From an uncultured Spirochaetales bacterium (GTDB taxonomy: Bacteria > UBP6 > UBA1177), in NCBI GenBank assembly GCA_902774115.1, contig CACYHH010000001.1, positions 124,001 through 188,000 on the forward strand: 64,000 bases of DNA, given 5' to 3'. Every line of letters starts with the position of its first letter. The first letter of the stretch is position 1. This document shows, piece by piece, positions 32,209-43,071 of the stretch. Made by a program: the position numbers and the translations under genes. The notes under the pieces were generated by a model, which had not been told where the DNA came from, ran no database searches, and saw nothing but the letters and a program-made list of their open reading frames with translations.

Positions 32209-33123
32209 ATGAAAAAATTACTTGCTATTCTTGTGATGCTTGCTGCTGCAACGACACTTTTTGCGGAAGACGAAAGTATTTCGTGTAAATCCGATCTTGG
32301 TGAATGCACCTTTACTCTTTCGGCGGATTCATTTTCAAAAGACTGCACCTGCCGCGACGGGAGCGGAGTCGGGGAGTCAGAACTTCCGCCAGAGGGTGGA
32401 ACTCTCGAATCGACATTGCCGACAGAGGAAGAATGCCGGGCTGAGATCGAAGACCTCTGCGGAAACGCAGGAATAAGATGCGAGAACAATGCCGGCGAAT
32501 GCGAAGTAGAAGCGGACGGCAGCTATGACTGCCGCTGTTTCGGATTCTCGGAAATTACTTCTGGAAACATTGAAGCCAGCGATGAAGCATGCAACAGCAA
32601 ACTTGTCGAGCTCTGCGGGACCGAGTCGGCAACGGCAAGAACTATCTGCACAGATTCAGAAATTTTTAATGTATGTCTTACTTACGCGAAGAGTTTTACG
32701 AACACATGCTACGAGCCGATGACAGATGAAGAAATAGAAGCAGCTCTCGATCTTCCGGCAGAAACCAACAACACGACGGCAGTCCTTGCTCTCTGCTGTC
32801 AGGACGAACAGATGAGAGATGAATGGTTCAAGGATTCTTTTGAATGTCTCGAAGCAATCGAAAGCTGTGAAGACGGGGAATGCTGCGACACTTGCGATGT
32901 TTTCGTTTTTGAAGAATCAAACGAGAAAGATGACGATGAAGTCATTTCTCCTGCTCCGGATGACAGCGCTGACGCAGGCGACACTGAAGTCCCGGCTGAA
33001 GATGCAACAGGCAATGCCGATGGTTCTGACGCTCCGACCGACGGTGATTCTGCACCCGCAACCGATTCCGAAGCTGAAAAAGAAGAAAGCAAATCCGACG
33101 GCTGCTCGATGCTGTTCATCTAA
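32209..33123 (+). CDS. Secreted Cys-rich protein with EKEESKSDGCSMLFI tail (paralog A)
   Basis: The 304-residue protein has a Sec signal peptide (LLAILVMLAAATTLFA, cut before EDES) and then about 28 Cys in a conserved pattern (CKSDLGECTF, CTCRDGSGVGE, CENNAGECEVE, ECCDTCD). An acidic low-complexity linker follows, and the last 15 residues are EKEESKSDGCSMLFI. The gene at 40732 is a full-length paralog and 42727-42918 a remnant. The DGCS tail recalls Cys-containing sorting tags such as MYXO-CTERM but lacks their membrane helix and Arg cluster. The ATG at 32209 has GGAGG upstream. No known domain was recognised; it is likely periplasmic or surface-exposed. Confidence 0.8.
   Translation: MKKLLAILVMLAAATTLFAEDESISCKSDLGECTFTLSADSFSKDCTCRDGSGVGESELPPEGGTLESTLPTEEECRAEIEDLCGNAGIRCENNAGECEVEADGSYDCRCFGFSEITSGNIEASDEACNSKLVELCGTESATARTICTDSEIFNVCLTYAKSFTNTCYEPMTDEEIEAALDLPAETNNTTAVLALCCQDEQMRDEWFKDSFECLEAIESCEDGECCDTCDVFVFEESNEKDDDEVISPAPDDSADAGDTEVPAEDATGNADGSDAPTDGDSAPATDSEAEKEESKSDGCSMLFI
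33075..33123 (+). repeat. 49-bp tail repeat T1
   Basis: This is the last 49 bp of paralog A, from TGAAAAAGAAG to the stop TAA. It is nearly identical to T2 (34652-34700; 47 of 49), T3 (41517-41565) and T4 (42870-42918). T1 and T2 flank the ATPase gene directly. Confidence 0.9.
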
Positions 33124-33176
33124 AAATTTCTTTTTTTTGTAATCTCCGGCACATAGTCTAAAAAGGCAAAAATTTC

Positions 33177-33275
33177 GCGCTCAGCTGTATTTTGGATAGA
33201 AAAGATTCTGCGCTAAGCTGTAAAATTCATAAAAAAAATTTTGCGCTAAGCTGTATTTTCTTGAAAAACAGCAAT
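33177..33275 (+). repeat. Three iterons of 33-bp period upstream of the ATPase gene
   Basis: GCGCTCAGCTGTA (33177), GCGCTAAGCTGTA (33210) and GCGCTAAGCTGTA (33243) repeat at exactly 33-bp spacing, about three helical turns, each followed by an AT-rich stretch. The last iteron ends 5 bp before the -35 box, so these are probable operator sites. Confidence 0.8.
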
Positions 33276-33289
33276 AAAATCAGTATAAT
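33261..33289 (+). promoter_or_regulatory. Sigma-70 promoter of the ATPase gene
   Basis: TTGAAA (33261-33266) and a perfect TATAAT (33284-33289) are separated by 17 bp, 27 bp before the TTG start at 33317. Confidence 0.8.
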
Positions 33290-33316
33290 CATATGTGATT
33301 CTTTTTGGAGGTTGTT

Positions 33317-34654
33317 TTGGAAAGAATTTTTAAAAGAAAAGCTTACGAAAAAATGCTCAAATGGAAGGCAGGATCAAACGGAAAAAGTGCTTTGCTGATA
33401 GAAGGGGCCAGGCGTGTCGGCAAGTCAACTCTGACAAGGCAGTTTGCTGAAAACGAGTATAAATCCTACATTCTGATCGATTGTTCCAAGTTGTCGGCAG
33501 AAGTTCGGAGCCTGCTGGATATAGGTTTCTCCGATCTCAACTACTTTTTTATGCGGCTGCAGATTCTTTACCGCGTGAACCTCTATGAGCGCAGATCCGT
33601 TATCATTTTCGATGAAGTCCAGCTCAGGCCTGACGCGAGACAGGCGATCAAGCATCTTGTCGAAGACGGAAGATACGACTACATCGAGACAGGTTCGCTT
33701 ATCAGCATCAAACAGAATGTGCGGGACATCGTTATTCCGAGCGAGGAAGAGCGTATTCAGATGTTTCCGATGGATTACGAGGAGTTTTCGTGGGCAGTCG
33801 GTGATACTGCCACGATTCCGATCCTGAAAGATCTTTTTGTAAGCCGCGCTTCTTTGGGGGAAGCCGTAAACCGCAAGATCATGCGTGATTTCAGGCTTTA
33901 TATGCTGGTCGGCGGTATGCCTCAGGCGGTTGAAAGCTATCTCGAAACAAACAACCTTCAAGCTGTAGACTCTGTGAAAAGGAGAATCATCAATCTTTAT
34001 ATTGAAGACCTTCACAAGCTCGATTCGACAGGAAAACTGCGCGCAATGTTCCGTGCGATACCATCTGAACTCGGCAAAGCTGAAAAGCACTATCAAGTGA
34101 CTACTGTTGTGGAAAATATCAGGAAGGAAAAGACTTTTGAACTGCTGGAAATGCTTTATGAAAGCATGATAGTCAATATCGCGTACCATTCTTCTGATCC
34201 GAACGCCGGGCTTGCTTTGAGCCGTGAAAGTACGCGTTTCAAAATGTTTATGGGTGACACCGGACTTTTTGTGACCTTGGCTTTCTGGGACAAGGATTTT
34301 ACCGAAAATATCATCTATCAGAAGCTTCTTTCCGACAAACTTGAAGCCAATTTGGGCTACATTTATGAAAATGTTGTCGCGCAGATGCTACGTGCTTCAG
34401 GTTATGAACTTTACTACTACACTTTTCCTGCATCCGGCAACCACAGTTATGAAGTCGATTTTCTTTTGTCGAAAGGGAACAAACTGGTTCCGGTCGAAGT
34501 TAAATCTTCCGGATATAAAACGCACAAATCTTTGGATGCTTTCTGCGAAAAGTTTTCTTCCCGCGTATCTGAAAGGATCCTGCTTTATACGAAAGATCTT
34601 CAGAAAGACGGTCAAACGACATGCCTTCCGGTTTACATGGCTCCTTTTTTGTGA
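33317..34654 (+). CDS. AAA ATPase with C-terminal DUF4143 domain
   Basis: The 445-residue protein has Walker A GARRVGKST near residue 35, Walker B SVIIFDEVQL near 95, a helical middle, and a C-terminal DUF4143 domain with a PD-(D/E)XK-like core (YEVDFLLSKG, then VPVEVKSSG). These proteins are common in bacterial accessory regions; their role is not settled and a nuclease or defence function has been suggested from the fold. TTG at 33317 is the chosen start, with GGAGG 5 bp upstream. The stop TGA (34652-34654) is formed by the first bases of tail repeat T2, so the gene is inserted exactly against the repeat. Confidence 0.85.
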   Translation: MERIFKRKAYEKMLKWKAGSNGKSALLIEGARRVGKSTLTRQFAENEYKSYILIDCSKLSAEVRSLLDIGFSDLNYFFMRLQILYRVNLYERRSVIIFDEVQLRPDARQAIKHLVEDGRYDYIETGSLISIKQNVRDIVIPSEEERIQMFPMDYEEFSWAVGDTATIPILKDLFVSRASLGEAVNRKIMRDFRLYMLVGGMPQAVESYLETNNLQAVDSVKRRIINLYIEDLHKLDSTGKLRAMFRAIPSELGKAEKHYQVTTVVENIRKEKTFELLEMLYESMIVNIAYHSSDPNAGLALSRESTRFKMFMGDTGLFVTLAFWDKDFTENIIYQKLLSDKLEANLGYIYENVVAQMLRASGYELYYYTFPASGNHSYEVDFLLSKGNKLVPVEVKSSGYKTHKSLDAFCEKFSSRVSERILLYTKDLQKDGQTTCLPVYMAPFL

Positions 34655-34700
34655 AAAAGAAGAAAGCAAATCCGACGGCTGCTCGATGCTGTTTATTTAA
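34652..34700 (+). repeat. 49-bp tail repeat T2
   Basis: It encodes EKEESKSDGCSMLFI and a stop, out of context, right after the ATPase gene. It differs from T1 only at two positions near the stop. The sequence just after it (TTTATTCCAACAAA) resembles the sequence after T3 (TTTATTTCAACAAA), so T2 probably marks the original 3' end of paralog A. Confidence 0.9.
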
Positions 34701-34906: not shown

Positions 34907-37423
34907 ATGAAAAGATCAAAGATTTTAGCAGCTGTTCTGGTTTTTTTGCTTTTTGCCGGTTGCGGAAGCTCAAAAAACGATAATCAGCATGAAAATCAGG
35001 ATTTAACTGATACAGTGACTGAGGAAGACGCCGACACAGTTGACATCGAGCCGGCGGATGCAGATTCTGACGGCGATTCCGATTCCATGCCGGAACCTGA
35101 CAACGATAATGCCGATACTGATTCCGTCGATGACTCAGATACCATTGAATCCAATGATGAAGACGGTGACACGGAACCGTCAGAAACAGATTCTGACAAA
35201 ATTCCGGCTGATGATTCCGACACCGCACCGGAACCGGATGACGATGACGCGGACAGCGAGCCGGTTGACGATGCAGATTCTGCGCCTGAACCAAGTGACG
35301 ATGATGCTGATACCGCTCCGGTTGACGATACAGATTCACAGTCTGAACCGAGCGACGATGATGCGGACATAGATTCAGACGATGATACCGATACTGCACT
35401 GGAAGAAAACGACGATGATGCGGACAGCGAACCTTTCAATGCATGCAGCAGTGAACCGTGCGCAGGCATCACGAATTCCACAGGAGTTTGTATCGCCGGG
35501 GCAGCGTTGGAGTATTTCTGCGAATGCAATGAACACTACATTTGGAACGGTACTGATTGCGAAGCCGAAACAACGGTTGCCGACTGCACCGACCTTCCCG
35601 AAAACGCAGTCTGGAACGACGGCGGCAGAAACGGCAAGTTTACACAGACCTGGAACGGTGAAACATGGGTTCCATCAAACTACGATTCGAGTTACAGCAC
35701 AACTGCGGGAATATGCACGTTTATTTGCGGAACAAACTACAACTGGGAGAGCTCTACTTCACAATGTGATGCCGCAACACAGCTTGGAAACTGCTCTTCA
35801 AAACCGGAAAATTCCGTTTGGAACGATAACGGCGCGAACGGCAAATTCACTCAGACTTGGAACGGTAGCACATGGTATCCGGCAAGCTACAGTTCGGCTT
35901 ACAGCACAAAAGCCGGTGTCTGCAAATACAAGTGTGCTGAGGAGTATCACCGTGAAAATTTACAATGCGTGTCGAATACAAGAACAAACGTCAGCTGCAC
36001 CAACCTTCCTTCAGGCGCACAGTGGAATACGGCTACAAGCATAACCCAGACCTGGAACGGTTCATCGTGGTCACCGGACACAAGCGGAACTTACAGCACT
36101 ACCGCAAGTACAACAGAATGTTTGTTCAAGTGCAAAAAACACTACACTTGGAAAAATTCAAAATGCGAAGCCGACCAGCAGACAGTGAACTGTGAAGAAA
36201 TTCCTCTTAATTCCGAGTGGAACTCTGTTTCAACAATCACTCAGACTTGGAACGGCAGCACATGGTATCCTCCGACAACCTCGGTATACAACACGACTTC
36301 AAGCACGGAATATTGCCGCTATAAGTGCAATGAAGGCTATTTTTGGAACGGTTCTTCGGAATGTATAAATCCCTGTGAGACAAATCCGTGCAATGATGTT
36401 GCGAACTCGACACACGAATGCTCTGCATCATCGTGGCAAAACTATTTCTGCAGCTGCAGTGCAGGTTACAACTGGAGACGCGGAGAATGTGCCGAAATTC
36501 CTAAAGCTTTAGGCAATATCTGCACCGGTCAGAATTTGTGCTACAATTACTTTACCAGTGCAGACAGTGAAATTATTGACTGCCCGACTTCATCAAGTGA
36601 CAAATTCTTCGGACAGGATGCCTATTATGCCGACAAAGGTCTGTGTATACCGCAGAGTTTTACTGTCCAGACTGTTTCAAGCCAGAAAATCGTTGTTGAC
36701 AACAACACAGGGTTGATGTGGCAGCAGACTCTTTCTGAAGAGACTTTCGCCTGGGAAAACGCCGTTTCATACTGTGACAATTTGACTTATGCCGGATATT
36801 CAGACTGGAGACTGCCGTCATCAAAAGAACTGTTTACCATTGTTGACCATGGCAAATACAGTCCTGCCATTGACACGACATTTTTCCCTGATACGCCCAG
36901 CGACTATTTTTGGTCACAAGACAACATTCTAACCTACTTTAATGATGGTCGTATGGCATTGGCTGTATTTTTCGACACCGGTGTTTCAACCATACTTTCC
37001 ACTGATGAATTAGAGTTTAATGTCCGCTGCGTGAGAGGTGCAGCACTGCCGACAGCTTCGTTCGTTTCCACCTTCGTGAACGGAGATGAAATTATAACAG
37101 ACACAAATACAGGTTTAATGTGGCAGAAAACTTATGTACTCGGTCCGTATTGGGAAAAGGCACTTGCCTACTGTGCAGAACTCTCTTATGCAGGTTTCAG
37201 TGACTGGAGACTGCCCAATATGATGGAGCTGCTGTCACTTGTGAACTGTGAAGTGTTTCCGACATCCGACTTTCCGGATACGCCGACGAAATACGCTTTC
37301 TGGTCTTCCACAACCAGCCTGCCTTACACCAGATTTGCTTTTGATGTGGATTTCTCATACGGGTCTTCCGGCGCCGGCGCACAACAAAAGCACATGAATA
37401 TCTATGTCCGTTGCGTGAGGTAG
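34907..37423 (+). CDS. Large DUF1566 lipoprotein (two DUF1566 domains)
   Basis: The 838-residue lipoprotein has Cys19 in LLFAGC and an Asp/Glu/Ser/Pro linker to about residue 178. A Cys-containing EGF-like piece is followed by four repeats of about 75 residues with the core TQTWNG(S/E)(T/S)W (for example NGKFTQTWNGETWVPSNY). The C-terminal third has two DUF1566 domains, each with GLMWQ, YAGYSDWRLP or YAGFSDWRLP, and VRCVR. It is probably a surface-displayed binding protein. ATG 34907 has GGAGG upstream. The gene at 37451 follows after 27 bp and is a paralog. Confidence 0.85.
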   Translation: MKRSKILAAVLVFLLFAGCGSSKNDNQHENQDLTDTVTEEDADTVDIEPADADSDGDSDSMPEPDNDNADTDSVDDSDTIESNDEDGDTEPSETDSDKIPADDSDTAPEPDDDDADSEPVDDADSAPEPSDDDADTAPVDDTDSQSEPSDDDADIDSDDDTDTALEENDDDADSEPFNACSSEPCAGITNSTGVCIAGAALEYFCECNEHYIWNGTDCEAETTVADCTDLPENAVWNDGGRNGKFTQTWNGETWVPSNYDSSYSTTAGICTFICGTNYNWESSTSQCDAATQLGNCSSKPENSVWNDNGANGKFTQTWNGSTWYPASYSSAYSTKAGVCKYKCAEEYHRENLQCVSNTRTNVSCTNLPSGAQWNTATSITQTWNGSSWSPDTSGTYSTTASTTECLFKCKKHYTWKNSKCEADQQTVNCEEIPLNSEWNSVSTITQTWNGSTWYPPTTSVYNTTSSTEYCRYKCNEGYFWNGSSECINPCETNPCNDVANSTHECSASSWQNYFCSCSAGYNWRRGECAEIPKALGNICTGQNLCYNYFTSADSEIIDCPTSSSDKFFGQDAYYADKGLCIPQSFTVQTVSSQKIVVDNNTGLMWQQTLSEETFAWENAVSYCDNLTYAGYSDWRLPSSKELFTIVDHGKYSPAIDTTFFPDTPSDYFWSQDNILTYFNDGRMALAVFFDTGVSTILSTDELEFNVRCVRGAALPTASFVSTFVNGDEIITDTNTGLMWQKTYVLGPYWEKALAYCAELSYAGFSDWRLPNMMELLSLVNCEVFPTSDFPDTPTKYAFWSSTTSLPYTRFAFDVDFSYGSSGAGAQQKHMNIYVRCVR

Positions 37424-37450: not shown

Positions 37451-40400
37451 ATGAAAAAATTTAGCCTGATTTTTGTCGTTTTAATGCTTTTGGCATTTGT
37501 TGGTTGCGGAAACTCAAAAAACGACAATCAAAACGAGAACACCGATTCAACGGATACCGTAACTGATGAAGAGAGCGGCACTGTTGACATTGAGCCGACG
37601 GAGGCAGAACCTATTCCGACCGACGATGCTGATTCTACGCCCGAACCAAATGACGATGATGTGGACACCGAACCGACCGACGATGCTGATTCTACGCCCG
37701 AACCAAATGACGATGATGTGGACACCGAGCCGACCGACGATGCTGATTCTACGCCCGAACCAAATGACGATGATGTGGACACCGAGCCGACCGATGATGC
37801 AGATTCCCAGCCCGAGCCAAGTGACGACGACGCAGACAGCGAACCGACTGACGATGCGGATTCCCAGCCTGAACTGGATGACGACGATACGGACAGCGAA
37901 CCGACCGATGATGCGGATTCTGTCATCGAACAGAGTGATGAGGAAAAATGCGCCGAAGCCGGCGGAACATGGAACGAAGAAGAACACAAATGCACAAAAA
38001 CCGTGGAATGCAGCGGCAAACCCGCAAACAGTGAATGGAGCAGCGAACATACAAGCTACACAATGGAATATGCTGACGGCGGATGGACAGGCGCAGTTGA
38101 TGCAAAATATATCGATGAATCCAACGGCTACTGCGGCTTCAGCTGCATCGAAAACTATTTCTGGAACGGCTCGGAATGCAGAACGCCTCTTCATTTGGGC
38201 AACATCTGCACGGGGCAGACATTGTGTTTCGGAGATTGGGCAAGCACCTTGGAGGTCACGAATATAATTCCATGCAATACACCGGCAGAAGATTTTTTCG
38301 GGCAGGATGCATATTACGCTTCCATCGGTGTCTGCACTCCGCAGAACTTAAAACTCATAACATCGGGGGAAGCAGCTGTTGTCAAAGATTTGAACACAGG
38401 TTTAATGTGGGCGCGGGATGCTGTATATCCTGACTGTTCAAGCTGGACAGCAGCTAAAAACTACTGTGAAGAACTAGAACACGGAGGTTATACCGACTGG
38501 CGTCTGCCGAAACCGCTTGAATTACTGACAATTGTTGACCGGACAGCCGGACTGGACTACTCACTCTTTCCGAATATTACACAATCCAGCGACTATCATT
38601 TATGGAGTTCCAGACTCAAATCCAATGACCCTTGCAAACCTTTCCTGCTTAACCCGTATTGGGGTGAAATAACCCAAGGTCCGAGCGATCCGTTTACTTT
38701 CACCACTAATGTTATTTGCGTCCGCGGAAATGAAATGGCTGACCCCTCACTCACAATCAAAAGATTCGGAGACGAGCTTGTTGCCATTGATTCCTCTACC
38801 GGCTTTATGTGGCAGACAGATTATCATTCTTTTTTCGGATCCGGTTGGATGGATGCTCTGGCATACTGTGAAAATTCAAATTATGCAGGTTATTCCGACT
38901 GGAGAATGCCTAACAAGCACGAACTGGCATCCCTTTTAAATTATGATAAACCGGAACCGCTCTTTTCCGATATGCCTAACGAGTATTACAACAGCCTTAA
39001 CCCTTCACTTTTTTCTTCAACGACTTCTTTTTCTGACAGAACAAGAGCATGGGGAGTAAGTTTTTATTTCGGCGATGTAATGTCCTTTGAAGGTAAAAAT
39101 CACGGTATTTTCCGTTGCGTAAGATCTATTGCCGAAGAGGATGCAAATGACGGTATCGTTGTTGAAAAGACTACGGAGGAAAAATGTGCCGAAGTCGGCG
39201 GAACCTGGAATGAAGAAAATGAAAAATGCACCAAAACTATCGGATGCAGCGAAAAACCGGCAAACAGCGTCTGGAACGGAGAATCAAACAATATTCTTGA
39301 ATATGAATACGGTGCATGGACATATCCTGTTGCAACCGAACACAGCGAGGAAGAGGGAATCTGCCGCTTCAAATGCGACACAACCCATTTCTGGAACGGA
39401 ACAAGCTGCGTAAATCCGTGCTTGAGTTTTGCAAATTCGACAGGTGTCTGTACTCATGAAAAGCCCGAAATATATTCGTGTGAATGTATCAGTGGATATT
39501 ACTGGTGGGGAACGGAAAACGGATGTTTGAACAGGCCCACTCTCGGAAATATCTGCACGGGACAGAACAAATGTTTCGGAAGCACTTGGACTGACACAAC
39601 TATACCGTCAGCTGAAATCCCGTGTCCCGTCTCACCTGACGATGATTTCTACGGACAGGATGCACAATATGCGGCTCTCGGTCACTGTGTTCCTCTGAAT
39701 TTTTCAGTTGAAACAAATATTTCAGGGGAAAATACCGTTCACGACAACAATACAGGTCTGGAATGGCAGCAAACCCTTTCAGACACTGAATTTACCTGGG
39801 AGGAAGCATCAAATTACTGCAGCGGACTTGTATACGGCGGTCATACCGACTGGCGTCTGCCGAATCCGAGTGAACTTTTGACAATTGTTGACGACAGCCG
39901 ATCGAACCCGCCTATAAATACGGAAATCTTCCTGAATATGCCTTCGCAGGCAGCAGGTTTATGGAGTTCCAAACAAAACAAGGGGCAACCTTCTTCTGAT
40001 TATTTTGACTTAAGATTATACGACGGATTTGTATCATGGCAGGAAGGCTCATCTGCTATTCGAGCTTTGTGTGTCCGTGGAACAGAACTTCCCACCGCTT
40101 CCCTTACAACAAAAACACTCAATGGTGATACTGTCGCTATTGATTCTGCAACCAAACTGATGTGGAAAAAGAAAGACGATTTTTCTGCCTCATATAATTG
40201 GTTTTACGCGTTGGATTATTGTGAAAATCTAAGTTATGCGGGATTTTCCGACTGGCGGTTACCCAATAAAAACGAACTGGCATCTCTCCTGAACTATGAC
40301 AATATCGACAGGATGTCCGACTTCGGAAACATAGGCATTTCATGGTCTTCAACCACATATATGCCTTATCAAATTTTAGCCTTTAGATATAACATGAACT

Positions 40401-40731: not shown

Positions 40732-41565
40732 ATGAAAAAATCACTTGTTTTGGTTGCAATGCTTGCAGTGGCAACAACACTTTTTGCGGAAACTGAAATG
40801 GTTTCATGCGAATCGGATCTTGGAAAATGCACTTATACGCTTTCTGATGAGTTTTTCAGTCAGGAATGCACATGCCGTGATGGTATGGGTGTTGGGGAAG
40901 ATTCAACAATTGATGGCACCCAAACTCTGCCGACAGACGAAGAATGTGATGCGGAACTTGAGAAAGTATGCAAAAACGCAGGAATCAAATGCGAAAACGA
41001 GGCTGGTGAATGCCATTTGGAACAGAATGGTGACTACAGCTGCAGATGCTACGGTATCGAAGGAATAAACACCGGAAGCGGAATTTTCAGCGAGACAGCA
41101 TGTAATGACACTCTTGTTGAAATCTGCGGAACGGAAGCTATGACTGCAAGAAAGATCTGCACGGAAGCAGGATTTCTTGATGTGTGTGTTTCTTACATTG
41201 AAAAAATCAACAATACTTGTCTTAATCCCATCGACGGAATCAACGACATTCTTGATGCTCCGCTTAATTCCGACTCAATATCGTACGAAATAGGACATTG
41301 CTGTCAGTATGAGGAGTATAGAAACGAATACAAAAACGAGTTTGACTGTCTTGAGGCATCTGGAACGTGCAACTCATGCGTTGATATGCCTTTTGACGAG
41401 GGCGAAGAGGGCAAAGAAGACGCTGCAAACACTGATGTAGCCGGAAACGGTTCCGCTTCTGCAGAAGACACCGCTGACGGTGATTCCGCACCCGCAACTG
41501 ATTCAGAATCTTCCTCTGAAAAAGAAGAAAGCAAATCCGACGGCTGTTCTATGCTGTTTATCTAA
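40732..41565 (+). CDS. Secreted Cys-rich protein with EKEESKSDGCSMLFI tail (paralog C)
   Basis: The 277-residue protein is a full-length paralog of the 32209 product: signal peptide SLVLVAMLAVATTLFA, then CESDLGKCTYTL, CTCRDGMGVGE, LPTDEECDAELEKVC, CENEAGEC, LVEICGTEAMTARKIC in the same order, an acidic linker, and the identical 15-residue tail. The Cys positions are kept while the linker has diverged. No known domain was recognised. GGAGG lies 6 bp before the ATG. It is followed within 40 bp by the promoter of the small RNA and Abi gene. Confidence 0.8.
   Translation: MKKSLVLVAMLAVATTLFAETEMVSCESDLGKCTYTLSDEFFSQECTCRDGMGVGEDSTIDGTQTLPTDEECDAELEKVCKNAGIKCENEAGECHLEQNGDYSCRCYGIEGINTGSGIFSETACNDTLVEICGTEAMTARKICTEAGFLDVCVSYIEKINNTCLNPIDGINDILDAPLNSDSISYEIGHCCQYEEYRNEYKNEFDCLEASGTCNSCVDMPFDEGEEGKEDAANTDVAGNGSASAEDTADGDSAPATDSESSSEKEESKSDGCSMLFI
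41517..41565 (+). repeat. 49-bp tail repeat T3
   Basis: The 3' end of paralog C, from TGAAAAAGAAG to TAA, nearly identical to T1, T2 and T4. With T4 it flanks the small RNA-Abi segment. Confidence 0.9.
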
Positions 41566-41638: not shown

Positions 41639-41698
41639 TAATAGTCCCTCCCACGCTTCCCGTAAGATCAGCGCACCAGGGAGGGCTTCGAGTTTTTT
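41639..41698 (+). ncRNA. Probable Abi-associated small structured RNA
   Basis: The segment folds as CCCTCCC (41646-41652) paired with GGGAGGG (41679-41685). Inside this stem CGC (41654-41656) can pair with GCG (41671-41673) around a small CTT/AAG hairpin. A T6 tract (41693-41698) follows the stem after 7 bases, as in an intrinsic terminator. It has its own promoter and ends 16 bp before the Abi_2 start. Several AbiF/AbiD-type systems are known to have a small RNA next to the HEPN gene; assignment here is by position and structure, not by sequence match. Confidence 0.6.
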
Positions 41699-41714
41699 GG
41701 AATCACGATTCAGC

Positions 41715-42635
41715 ATGAAATACACAAAATCTCCGATTTCAGTTGACGAGCAAATAGCAAAACTTGAAAAACGCGGATTGAATTTTTTGGATAAAACTTC
41801 CGCTCGCGAATATCTGAAAAACATCGGCTGCTACAGGCTGCGGTCCTATACTTATCCTTTTCAGAACAACACCGATCCTGATGTAGACCACGCCTTTATC
41901 CTAAAAGACATCTGTTTTGAGGATATCATCGACCTTTATCTTTTCGACCGCAGATTAAGGAATCTTATTTTTAACGAACTTGAAAAAATCGAAGTTGCTG
42001 TCCGTACTAAAATGTCGCTTGTTTATTCTGTTTCGACCGAAGATCCATGGTGGTTTGAAGCGGCGGAAAGATATAAAGACAAAAATTTTTATGAAAAACT
42101 TGTCGAAAACATAAAGGCTGATGTGCTTAGAAGCAATGAGGATTTTATTAGACATTACAAGGAGAAATATGATTCGCCGGAAATGCCGCCGTCGTGGATG
42201 ACTTTGGAAGTCGTTTCGTTCGGTGCTTTAAGCCGGATGTACGGCCTGTTGCGCGACAGCCGCGAAAAACAGAAAATTGCTGAAGAATTGGGAATTCGCA
42301 AAAGCGATGTGCTTTCGAACTGGCTTCACGCTTTCTCAAATCTGCGGAATTGCTGCGCTCACCACAGCAGAATCTGGAACAGGAGATTCGCTATTCACTT
42401 GAAACTTTCATACAACACAACCAATCCGTTTTTAAGCAAATCCGAGACTGAAACTTTGGAACATAACAAAATTTTTGCCATCCTCTGCGCTGTCAAATAC
42501 ATCGTTGACATCATAAGTCCCGGAAATTCTTTTAAAAAGAATCTTGTAGCATTGCTGAATGACAGGCATCTGCTTTTGACTCTCAAAGAAATGGGATTTC
42601 CTAATGATTGGGAAAATCTGCCTGTGTGGAGATAA
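41715..42635 (+). CDS. Abi_2 (AbiD/AbiF) family abortive-infection protein, HEPN
   Basis: The 306-residue protein matches Abi_2: SPISVDEQIAKLEKRGL at the N-terminus, YLKNIGCYRLRSYTYPF, LYLFDRRLRNLIFNELEKIE and the HEPN signature NLRNCCAHHSRIWNRRF near residue 220, where R and H (RX4H) are the expected RNase residues. Family members stop phage growth by RNA cleavage and have been linked to Cas13 ancestry. The ATG at 41715 lacks a clear Shine-Dalgarno sequence, so translation may depend on the upstream RNA. The gene sits between tail repeats T3 and T4. Confidence 0.88.
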   Translation: MKYTKSPISVDEQIAKLEKRGLNFLDKTSAREYLKNIGCYRLRSYTYPFQNNTDPDVDHAFILKDICFEDIIDLYLFDRRLRNLIFNELEKIEVAVRTKMSLVYSVSTEDPWWFEAAERYKDKNFYEKLVENIKADVLRSNEDFIRHYKEKYDSPEMPPSWMTLEVVSFGALSRMYGLLRDSREKQKIAEELGIRKSDVLSNWLHAFSNLRNCCAHHSRIWNRRFAIHLKLSYNTTNPFLSKSETETLEHNKIFAILCAVKYIVDIISPGNSFKKNLVALLNDRHLLLTLKEMGFPNDWENLPVWR

Positions 42636-42735: not shown

Positions 42736-42918
42736 ACAGAAGAATGCTGTAACAGTTGCGATTTCCAATTTTATTCCGGAGATTTGGAGAGTGATGCTGC
42801 TTCCGCTGACGGTGATAAGGCAGACGGTGACGGTTCCGTTTCACCCGCAACCGATTCTGAATCTTCCGCTGAAAAAGAAGAAAGCAAATCCGACGGCTGT
42901 TCGATGCTTTTCATCTAA
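42727..42918 (+). pseudogene. 3' remnant of a third Cys-rich paralog
   Basis: The frame ending at 42918 encodes NCNTEECCNSCDFQFYSGD, an acidic linker and the tail EKEESKSDGCSMLFI. It corresponds to ESCEDGECCDTCDVF and the following residues of the 32209 protein. The signal peptide and most of the Cys-rich domain are missing, and the sequence upstream is the leader copy, so an internal deletion joined leader to 3' end. No start codon with a binding site serves this frame; an ATG at 42604 lies inside the Abi gene. Confidence 0.75.
42870..42918 (+). repeat. 49-bp tail repeat T4
   Basis: Tail repeat at the end of the pseudogene, with the same 15 codons plus stop as T1 to T3. Confidence 0.9.
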
Positions 42919-43048
42919 ACAGGATCAGCCTTCGCATAGAGGGTTTTTCTGCCTGCTCCTATCCGGATCAGGGTCCCGTCGTCAACAAGATTAGCAGAAA
43001 ATCAATCTTTTTCTCCCAAATTTAATGATGTTTTGTGAGAAATAGCAT

Positions 43049-43071
43049 GCTGTTCGATGCTGTTTATCTAA
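43049..43071 (+). repeat. 23-bp tail repeat scrap T5
   Basis: GCTGTTCGATGCTGTTTATC plus TAA is the very end of the tail repeat (CSMLFI and stop) with nothing of the gene before it. The 130 bp between T4 and T5 hold an 8-bp inverted repeat (TTTTCTGC at 42945-42952, GCAGAAAA at 42994-43001) and no gene. Confidence 0.7.

Follow-up and report, generated by a model that had tools for sequence, protein, structure and literature searches.

Two loci with repeated gene ends

The window, that is, the whole stretch of 64,000 nucleotides analysed here, holds two paralogous genes encoding Cys-rich proteins, indicated as A and B, and short segments of their 3' ends (tails, T1 to T5) recur downstream of an accessory gene. 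The features of locus A are the following (G and L numbers designate genomes and loci):

32209 to 33123, forward strand: gene A, from the ORF list, encoding a Cys-rich secreted-type protein of 304 aa with the C-terminus KEESKSDGCSMLFI
33075 to 33123, forward strand: T1, the last 49 bp of gene A, with the 33-bp site core at 33091-33123 in the GCTGTTCATCTAA variant; upstream copy, arrived with the insert
33124 to 33169, forward strand: left linker, also present in the G008 copy of the ATPase unit
33170 to 34654, forward strand: mobile core, the part common to 94-95% identical copies at unrelated sites
33177 to 33255, forward strand: iterons, three direct repeats GCGCT(A/C)AGCTGTA with starts at 33177, 33210 and 33243 and a spacing of exactly 33 bp
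33261 to 33289, forward strand: probable promoter TTGAAA-17 bp-TATAAT, directly 3' of the third iteron, as read from the sequence
33317 to 34654, forward strand: AAA_14-DUF4143 ATPase gene (PADLOC PDC-S01), recognised by profile matches and conserved motifs
34652 to 34700, forward strand: T2, native end of gene A, with the 33-bp site at 34668-34700

Gene A has no match in Pfam or NCBIfam, and its orthologues in congeners are 89-97% identical. T1 and T2 are present as reported in a preliminary description of this DNA, with identity at 47 of 49 positions and two mismatches, and the ATPase stop codon TGA (34652-34654) is indeed formed by the first three bases of T2; T2 and T3, the corresponding end of gene B, differ at three positions, and the occurrence of T1, T2 and T3 is beyond chance (0 in 100 dinucleotide shuffles). 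The unit conserved at other loci is not the 49 bp of the T1/T2 match, which holds for this pair, but 33 bp, the extra 16 bp being Cys-gene coding sequence. The start codon of the ATPase is probably the TTG at 33317, 6 nt 3' of a GGAGG, instead of position 33305, and the iteron motif has no occurrence elsewhere in the genome. The 1.58-kb segment carries the ATPase alone, in agreement with the reported absence of an integrase from the insert.

The suggestion that T2 represents the original end is borne out by related genomes, in which gene A has a single tail followed by the DNA found after T2 (G008, L072; G004, L076); further single-tail gene A loci with a T2-type right flank are present in G001 (L284) and G014 (L262/L314). 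In particular, gene A of G008, 97% identical to that of the window, ends with the single tail GCTGTTTATTTAA and continues as TTTATTCC, the post-T2 sequence, and the same arrangement is found in G004. T1 reads GCTGTTCATCTAAAAATTTC, which is the sequence upstream of a near-identical ATPase at another G008 locus, and its continuation TTCATCTAAAAATTTC is common to the G008 copy of the ATPase unit (L059/L276) and absent from the single-tail genomes. Because the single-tail flank matches T2 and T1 matches the sequence upstream of the G008 ATPase, T2 is considered the native end and T1 the copy brought by the insert. The ATPase is not a constant neighbour of gene A, since four congeners have the gene with one tail and without the ATPase; at a second locus, in both G008 and G009, the ATPase unit is likewise enclosed by tails.

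Locus B comprises the following features:

40732 to 41565, forward strand: gene B, the Cys-rich paralogue of gene A
41517 to 41565, forward strand: T3, the last 49 bp of gene B, with the 33-bp site at 41533-41565
41697 to 42635, forward strand: AbiD-type gene (Pfam Abi_2), the second bracketed cargo
42886 to 42918, forward strand: T4, a 33-bp site preceded by a Cys-gene 3' remnant of ~220 bp
43048 to 43071, forward strand: T5, of which only the site core is present (TGCTGTTCGATGCTGTTTATCTAA); the native right flank of locus B comes next

T4 and T5 lie beyond the AbiD gene, and the window therefore contains two tail-bracketed accessory genes, against the single one initially described. The occupancy of locus B varies among congeners: G014 and G012 have a single site, the window carries AbiD between its sites, and G004 carries PBECR4 there. 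The right-flank variant that is native to the locus remains with the downstream site copy.

Repertoire, orientation and edges of the 33-bp site

The site, whose core is GGCTGYTCNATGCTGTTYRTCTAA, was searched allowing up to 3 mismatches and is present in 112 copies distributed over 15 of 15 congeners, a genome set consisting mostly of metagenome assemblies, some in many contigs, in which the copies of related species are non-independent; the same pattern read backwards, used as a control in the same congener search, gave 0 matches. It is absent from 46 other genomes (24-bp core, up to 2 mismatches) and has no exact match in viral contigs. The records near the window derive from ruminant forestomach samples.

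Among 89 copies inspected, 38 are solo and 51 form in-frame ORF ends, nearly all of Cys-rich genes. The genes of this family overlap the site with their last 10 codons; many solo copies begin 0-5 bp past the stop of an unrelated gene that is read from the same strand. The alignment of solo copies (n = 42) contains ~0.2 bit per position to the left of position -2, rises sharply at the first base, remains at ~1.1-2.0 bits over nearly all 33 positions and drops after base 33. Site pairs no more than 4 kb apart are on the same strand in 25 cases and on opposite strands in 0, and random site placement gave a mean of 1.37 and a maximum of 7 (2000 trials); tandem Cys-rich genes supply part of this same-strand excess, and most intervals carry other cargo.

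Tail repeats elsewhere were expected to flank different cargo, and the 25 same-strand pairs do enclose varied genes: PDC-S01 ATPase, AbiD, acyltransferase_3, YafQ, RelB with PIN, UPF0175 with DUF3368, PBECR4, SLFN_AlbA_2 (Schlafen-type) proteins, MnmA, a BRO-N protein matching PDC-S13 and lipoproteins. Many of the unrelated accessory genes joined at the site are phage-defence or toxin-antitoxin genes, and the inserts at other site intervals contain one to three cargo genes. A PBECR4 cassette occurs at two loci with different neighbours (L310/L318), where the DNA in common is limited to the stretch that starts within one site and stops at the end of the following one; the site is absent after some cargo copies. 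Where two sites have the right flank alone in common, their agreement exceeds background at positions 26-32 but not at positions 0-13, and the exchanges therefore map inside the site.

Since solo copies with the same direction are located at the joins of unrelated genes, the site has the appearance of a docking point for a gene-cassette system different from an integron. Judging from the sequences, it is rather probable that the tail is the 33-bp junction site of a genus-specific, integron-like system of this kind, in which copies would recombine via an excised circle, and the junction sequences suggest that a recombinase acts on the tail. A cassette would consist of a promoter, one to three accessory genes and one site copy at the end; a new cassette would join directly 3' of an existing site copy with constant orientation, so that the site copies would form direct repeats around the cargo. 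The upstream copy would arrive with the cassette and the native copy would remain downstream, and the overlap of the site with the last 10 codons of the Cys-rich gene would leave the 3' end of the host gene intact after insertion. In the window, a 1.58-kb cassette made of the PDC-S01 ATPase and its iteron-type promoter would have entered gene A, and the AbiD unit would have been inserted after gene B. The original idea that the tail may serve as a recombination site for the capture of accessory genes is thus supported by the single-tail relatives and by the varied cargo between tails.

Some observations are at odds with the cassette system, among them the cargo copies without a following site and the lack of a linked recombinase. 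T2 and T4 retain on their left 16 bp and ~220 bp of Cys-gene sequence, respectively, and these two junctions are therefore untrimmed to the 33-bp unit; moreover, copies of the ATPase and of further cargo are found between repeats of another tail, that of gltD, which a single-site system leaves unexplained. No circular or excised form of a cassette was seen in the data, which are mostly metagenome assemblies. In the main rival explanation, which dispenses with a dedicated system, the 3' ends conserved in the large Cys-rich gene family (and in gltD) would recombine by a RecA-type process, homologous or half-illegitimate, that carries neighbouring genes along and leaves the tails as remnants. The sites have a near identity over 33-49 bp that is sufficient for RecA, the Cys-gene remnants of ~220 bp at locus B fit this process, the gltD tail flanks varied cargo in G002, G006, G013 and G014, and the sites have no linked integrase. 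Nevertheless, such recombination should produce remnants of random length, whereas the 42 solo copies share one sharp left edge, and the repeated contact of the site with foreign stop codons, in many cargos, and the 25:0 strand bias also argue against this explanation, which is considered unlikely overall.

According to a further explanation, Cys-rich genes would have been duplicated in tandem and their bodies then decayed or replaced, with only the tails left; in its favour, these genes are found in tandem and some downstream copies are degenerate (L302 and T4 of the window). It is disfavoured because single-site relatives exist, which share the flanks on both sides of the tail, and the sharp 33-bp edges beside foreign stop codons also count against it, making it highly improbable.

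The iteron-associated ATPase family

The ATPase inserted at gene A matches PADLOC PDC-S01 with an E value of 9e-97 and contains AAA_14 and DUF4143 domains; PDC-S01 is a phage-defence candidate by name only. Its Walker A and Walker B motifs and the PD-(D/E)XK-type residues (E354, D384 and E397-x-K399) are conserved. A sequence search did not retrieve a solved structure, and the predicted model (pLDDT 91) has as closest folds SSO1545 (2fna, E 5e-9) and Cdc6/Orc1 (2qby, bound to origin DNA). The full-length TM-scores with these proteins are low (0.3-0.5) and, unlike them, the ATPase has a C-terminal PD-(D/E)XK-like domain and is encoded by a solitary mobile gene. It is a member of the PDC-S01/COG1373 ATPases, and COG1373 is listed among the genes exchanged between distinct gut genera (PMC10782964); the repeats and the unit boundaries of the family were not found described in the literature searched, where few papers name the family.

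Strong direct repeats precede 108 of 125 family members, and of the 112 that pass the lag-count threshold (score of at least 10), 98 have a spacing of exactly 33 bp; at a higher threshold (11), the control regions gave 19/125 downstream and 7/118 further upstream. In an independent set of 26 distinct viral-contig loci, strong repeats occur in 17, all at 32-34 bp, and in 0 downstream. Repeats with the 33-bp spacing are located before ATPases of Bacteroidales, Lachnospiraceae, Treponema, Bacilli and viral contigs; paralogues differ in their motif, and in many cases the -35 box immediately follows the last repeat. Motif similarity showed no correlation with ATPase protein similarity (Mantel rho -0.15) in a crude measure applied to fast-diverging motifs. 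The ATPase may bind its own repeats, and the exact spacing makes this very large family accessible to experiments on such binding and on whether the repeats are the end of the mobile unit.

The PDC-S01-type ATPase family behaves as a single-gene mobile unit, independent of the 33-bp tail. The genome of the window encodes about a dozen AAA_14-DUF4143 members, and ATPase copies 85-95% identical are found at unrelated places, where the homology stops just left of the first iteron of the repeat array and at the stop codon. In fact, a 94% identical copy lies at the end of a gltD-like gene without the 33-bp tail, and others are located at polA and elsewhere. At the polA 3' end, four congeners carry the unit and four lack it; in G014 (L247, G014:C5) and G009 (L248, G009:C93) the same position is occupied by another ATPase, ~35% identical to that of the window.

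The ATPase itself could be the mobile agent, that is, iterons and an AAA+/nuclease gene that insert at gene 3' ends and duplicate the target tail. This is consistent with the edges of the copies at unrelated sites, with the polA insertions that have empty relatives and with the resemblance of the fold to DNA-binding Cdc6/Orc1 proteins, as well as with flanking duplications at 26/124 ATPases versus 2/136 control genes (score of at least 18; some of them are iteron repeats or tandem ATPases), the duplicated ends including a tRNA-Leu (73 bp, L062), a gltD-like tail (29 bp, L101) and the start of a dus-like gene (L024). On the other hand, a long duplication is missing at most ATPase insertions, the duplicated lengths range from 22 to >120 bp, the repeat at L108 is a dispersed REP-like sequence and was rejected as a duplication, and the 33-bp site brackets other cargo where any ATPase is absent; the ATPase is thus an improbable agent. 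Because the insertions at polA and L148 are devoid of duplication, the tail as an ATPase-made target-site duplication was rejected as a general case, and this range, from none to >120 bp, also distinguishes the insertions from transposable elements with target-site duplications of fixed length.

The polA 3' end (L247, L248, L007) has the appearance of an insertion hotspot. At L062, in Erysipelotrichaceae, the 73-bp 3' part of the tRNA-Leu gene brackets an ATPase in two copies identical at ~71/73 positions, one located ~203-131 bp before the ATPase gene and the other 7-79 bp after it. A gltD-like coding tail of 29-69 bp is duplicated around four cargos in four congeners (L101, L203, L204, L210), namely two unrelated PDC-S01 ATPases, a lipoprotein and an 807-aa restriction-methylation-like protein beside small ORFs. 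A G+C-rich REP-like repeat (GCGGGCGGCTCGCCCGC) is scattered in the genus (L108, L154, L207) and can imitate flanking duplications.

Recombinases and comparison with known systems

Within the genus no recombinase linked to the sites was found and no tyrosine recombinase adjoins a site, and the idea of a dedicated integrase beside them was rejected. The tyrosine recombinases of the genus are XerD (above its cut-off), a XerC-like protein and a solo protein of 395-400 aa (MVKVFKKKGSKNYYFQ...), the last being present in ~10/15 congeners at differing loci (L356-L364). IntI is lacking, the integron integrase model giving 139, 134 and 30 bits versus a cut-off of 265. The dif sequence of the genus, CGCATAACATATATTATGTAAA, is a single-copy sequence in 13 of 15 genomes and is unlike the tail, so that the identification of the tail as dif or pdif was discarded. 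The reading of the site as an attC hairpin was likewise abandoned, since neither the 33-bp and 48-bp sites (z from -0.4 to +1.1) nor their 82-nt extensions fold better than shuffled sequences. In four congeners a dif lies within ~9 kb of a tail site, at L406 (G011:C35:83618), G003:C13:15908, G004:C76:30279 and G002:C3:28205; the remaining nine genomes that gave a dif match showed no such proximity.

Compared with integrons, whose features were taken from PMC8876359, the inserts are similarly single genes with the site at the 3' end, in one orientation and inserted after an existing site, and are similarly rich in toxin-antitoxin, defence and acyltransferase genes; the single orientation and the position of the site 3' of the ORF are apparent from the 25:0 pairs and from the sites 0-5 bp past many stop codons. 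In contrast to attC, which has a variable sequence with imperfect inverted repeats and forms a hairpin, the site described here is 33 bp long, nearly constant and non-folding, and doubles as the coding 3' end of a gene family; furthermore, there is neither IntI nor a single array next to an integrase, and the cassettes appear to have their own promoters.

The pdif modules of Acinetobacter (XerC/XerD), for which PMC13141974 was the reference, are also small, often contain toxin-antitoxin genes, are bounded by short sites and have no linked recombinase. Their site is instead a 28-bp dif-like sequence with XerC and XerD arms, and pdif sites alternate in orientation (PMC13141974), whereas neighbouring tail sites are all direct. 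Integrative elements at the 3' end of a tRNA or protein gene share the duplication of the host end, which is kept intact with the native copy downstream, and both the restored 3' end and the native copy at the far end are recognisable here from the single-tail relatives and from locus B; they differ in that the present insert is devoid of an integrase, the cargo is limited to one to three genes and the same site is used at many loci.

It is tentatively proposed that the genus harbours a new class of cassette system, with a non-folding 33-bp site that is also a coding C-terminus, a putative recombinase that is neither IntI nor XerCD/dif, and defence and toxin-antitoxin genes collected singly throughout the genus. 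No description of the site or of the 33-bp spacing of the ATPase repeats was found in the literature searched, outside of which lie many subscription journals. If the cassette system is real, it would be a second route, besides integrons and XerCD modules, by which bacteria accumulate small accessory genes at a standardised docking site; this site would be concealed in ordinary coding sequence and invisible to annotation, and reading the DNA between its copies would be a direct way to the defence genes of this genus.

Two minor observations concern other genes. Type IV pilin genes adjoin short tyrosine-recombinase-like ORFs (L365, L366), possibly a pilin variation locus. In the window, 57-bp in-frame tandem repeats (35144-35490 and 37556-37959) encode acidic stalks (DDADSxPEPNDDD) in two large Lcl_C lipoproteins.
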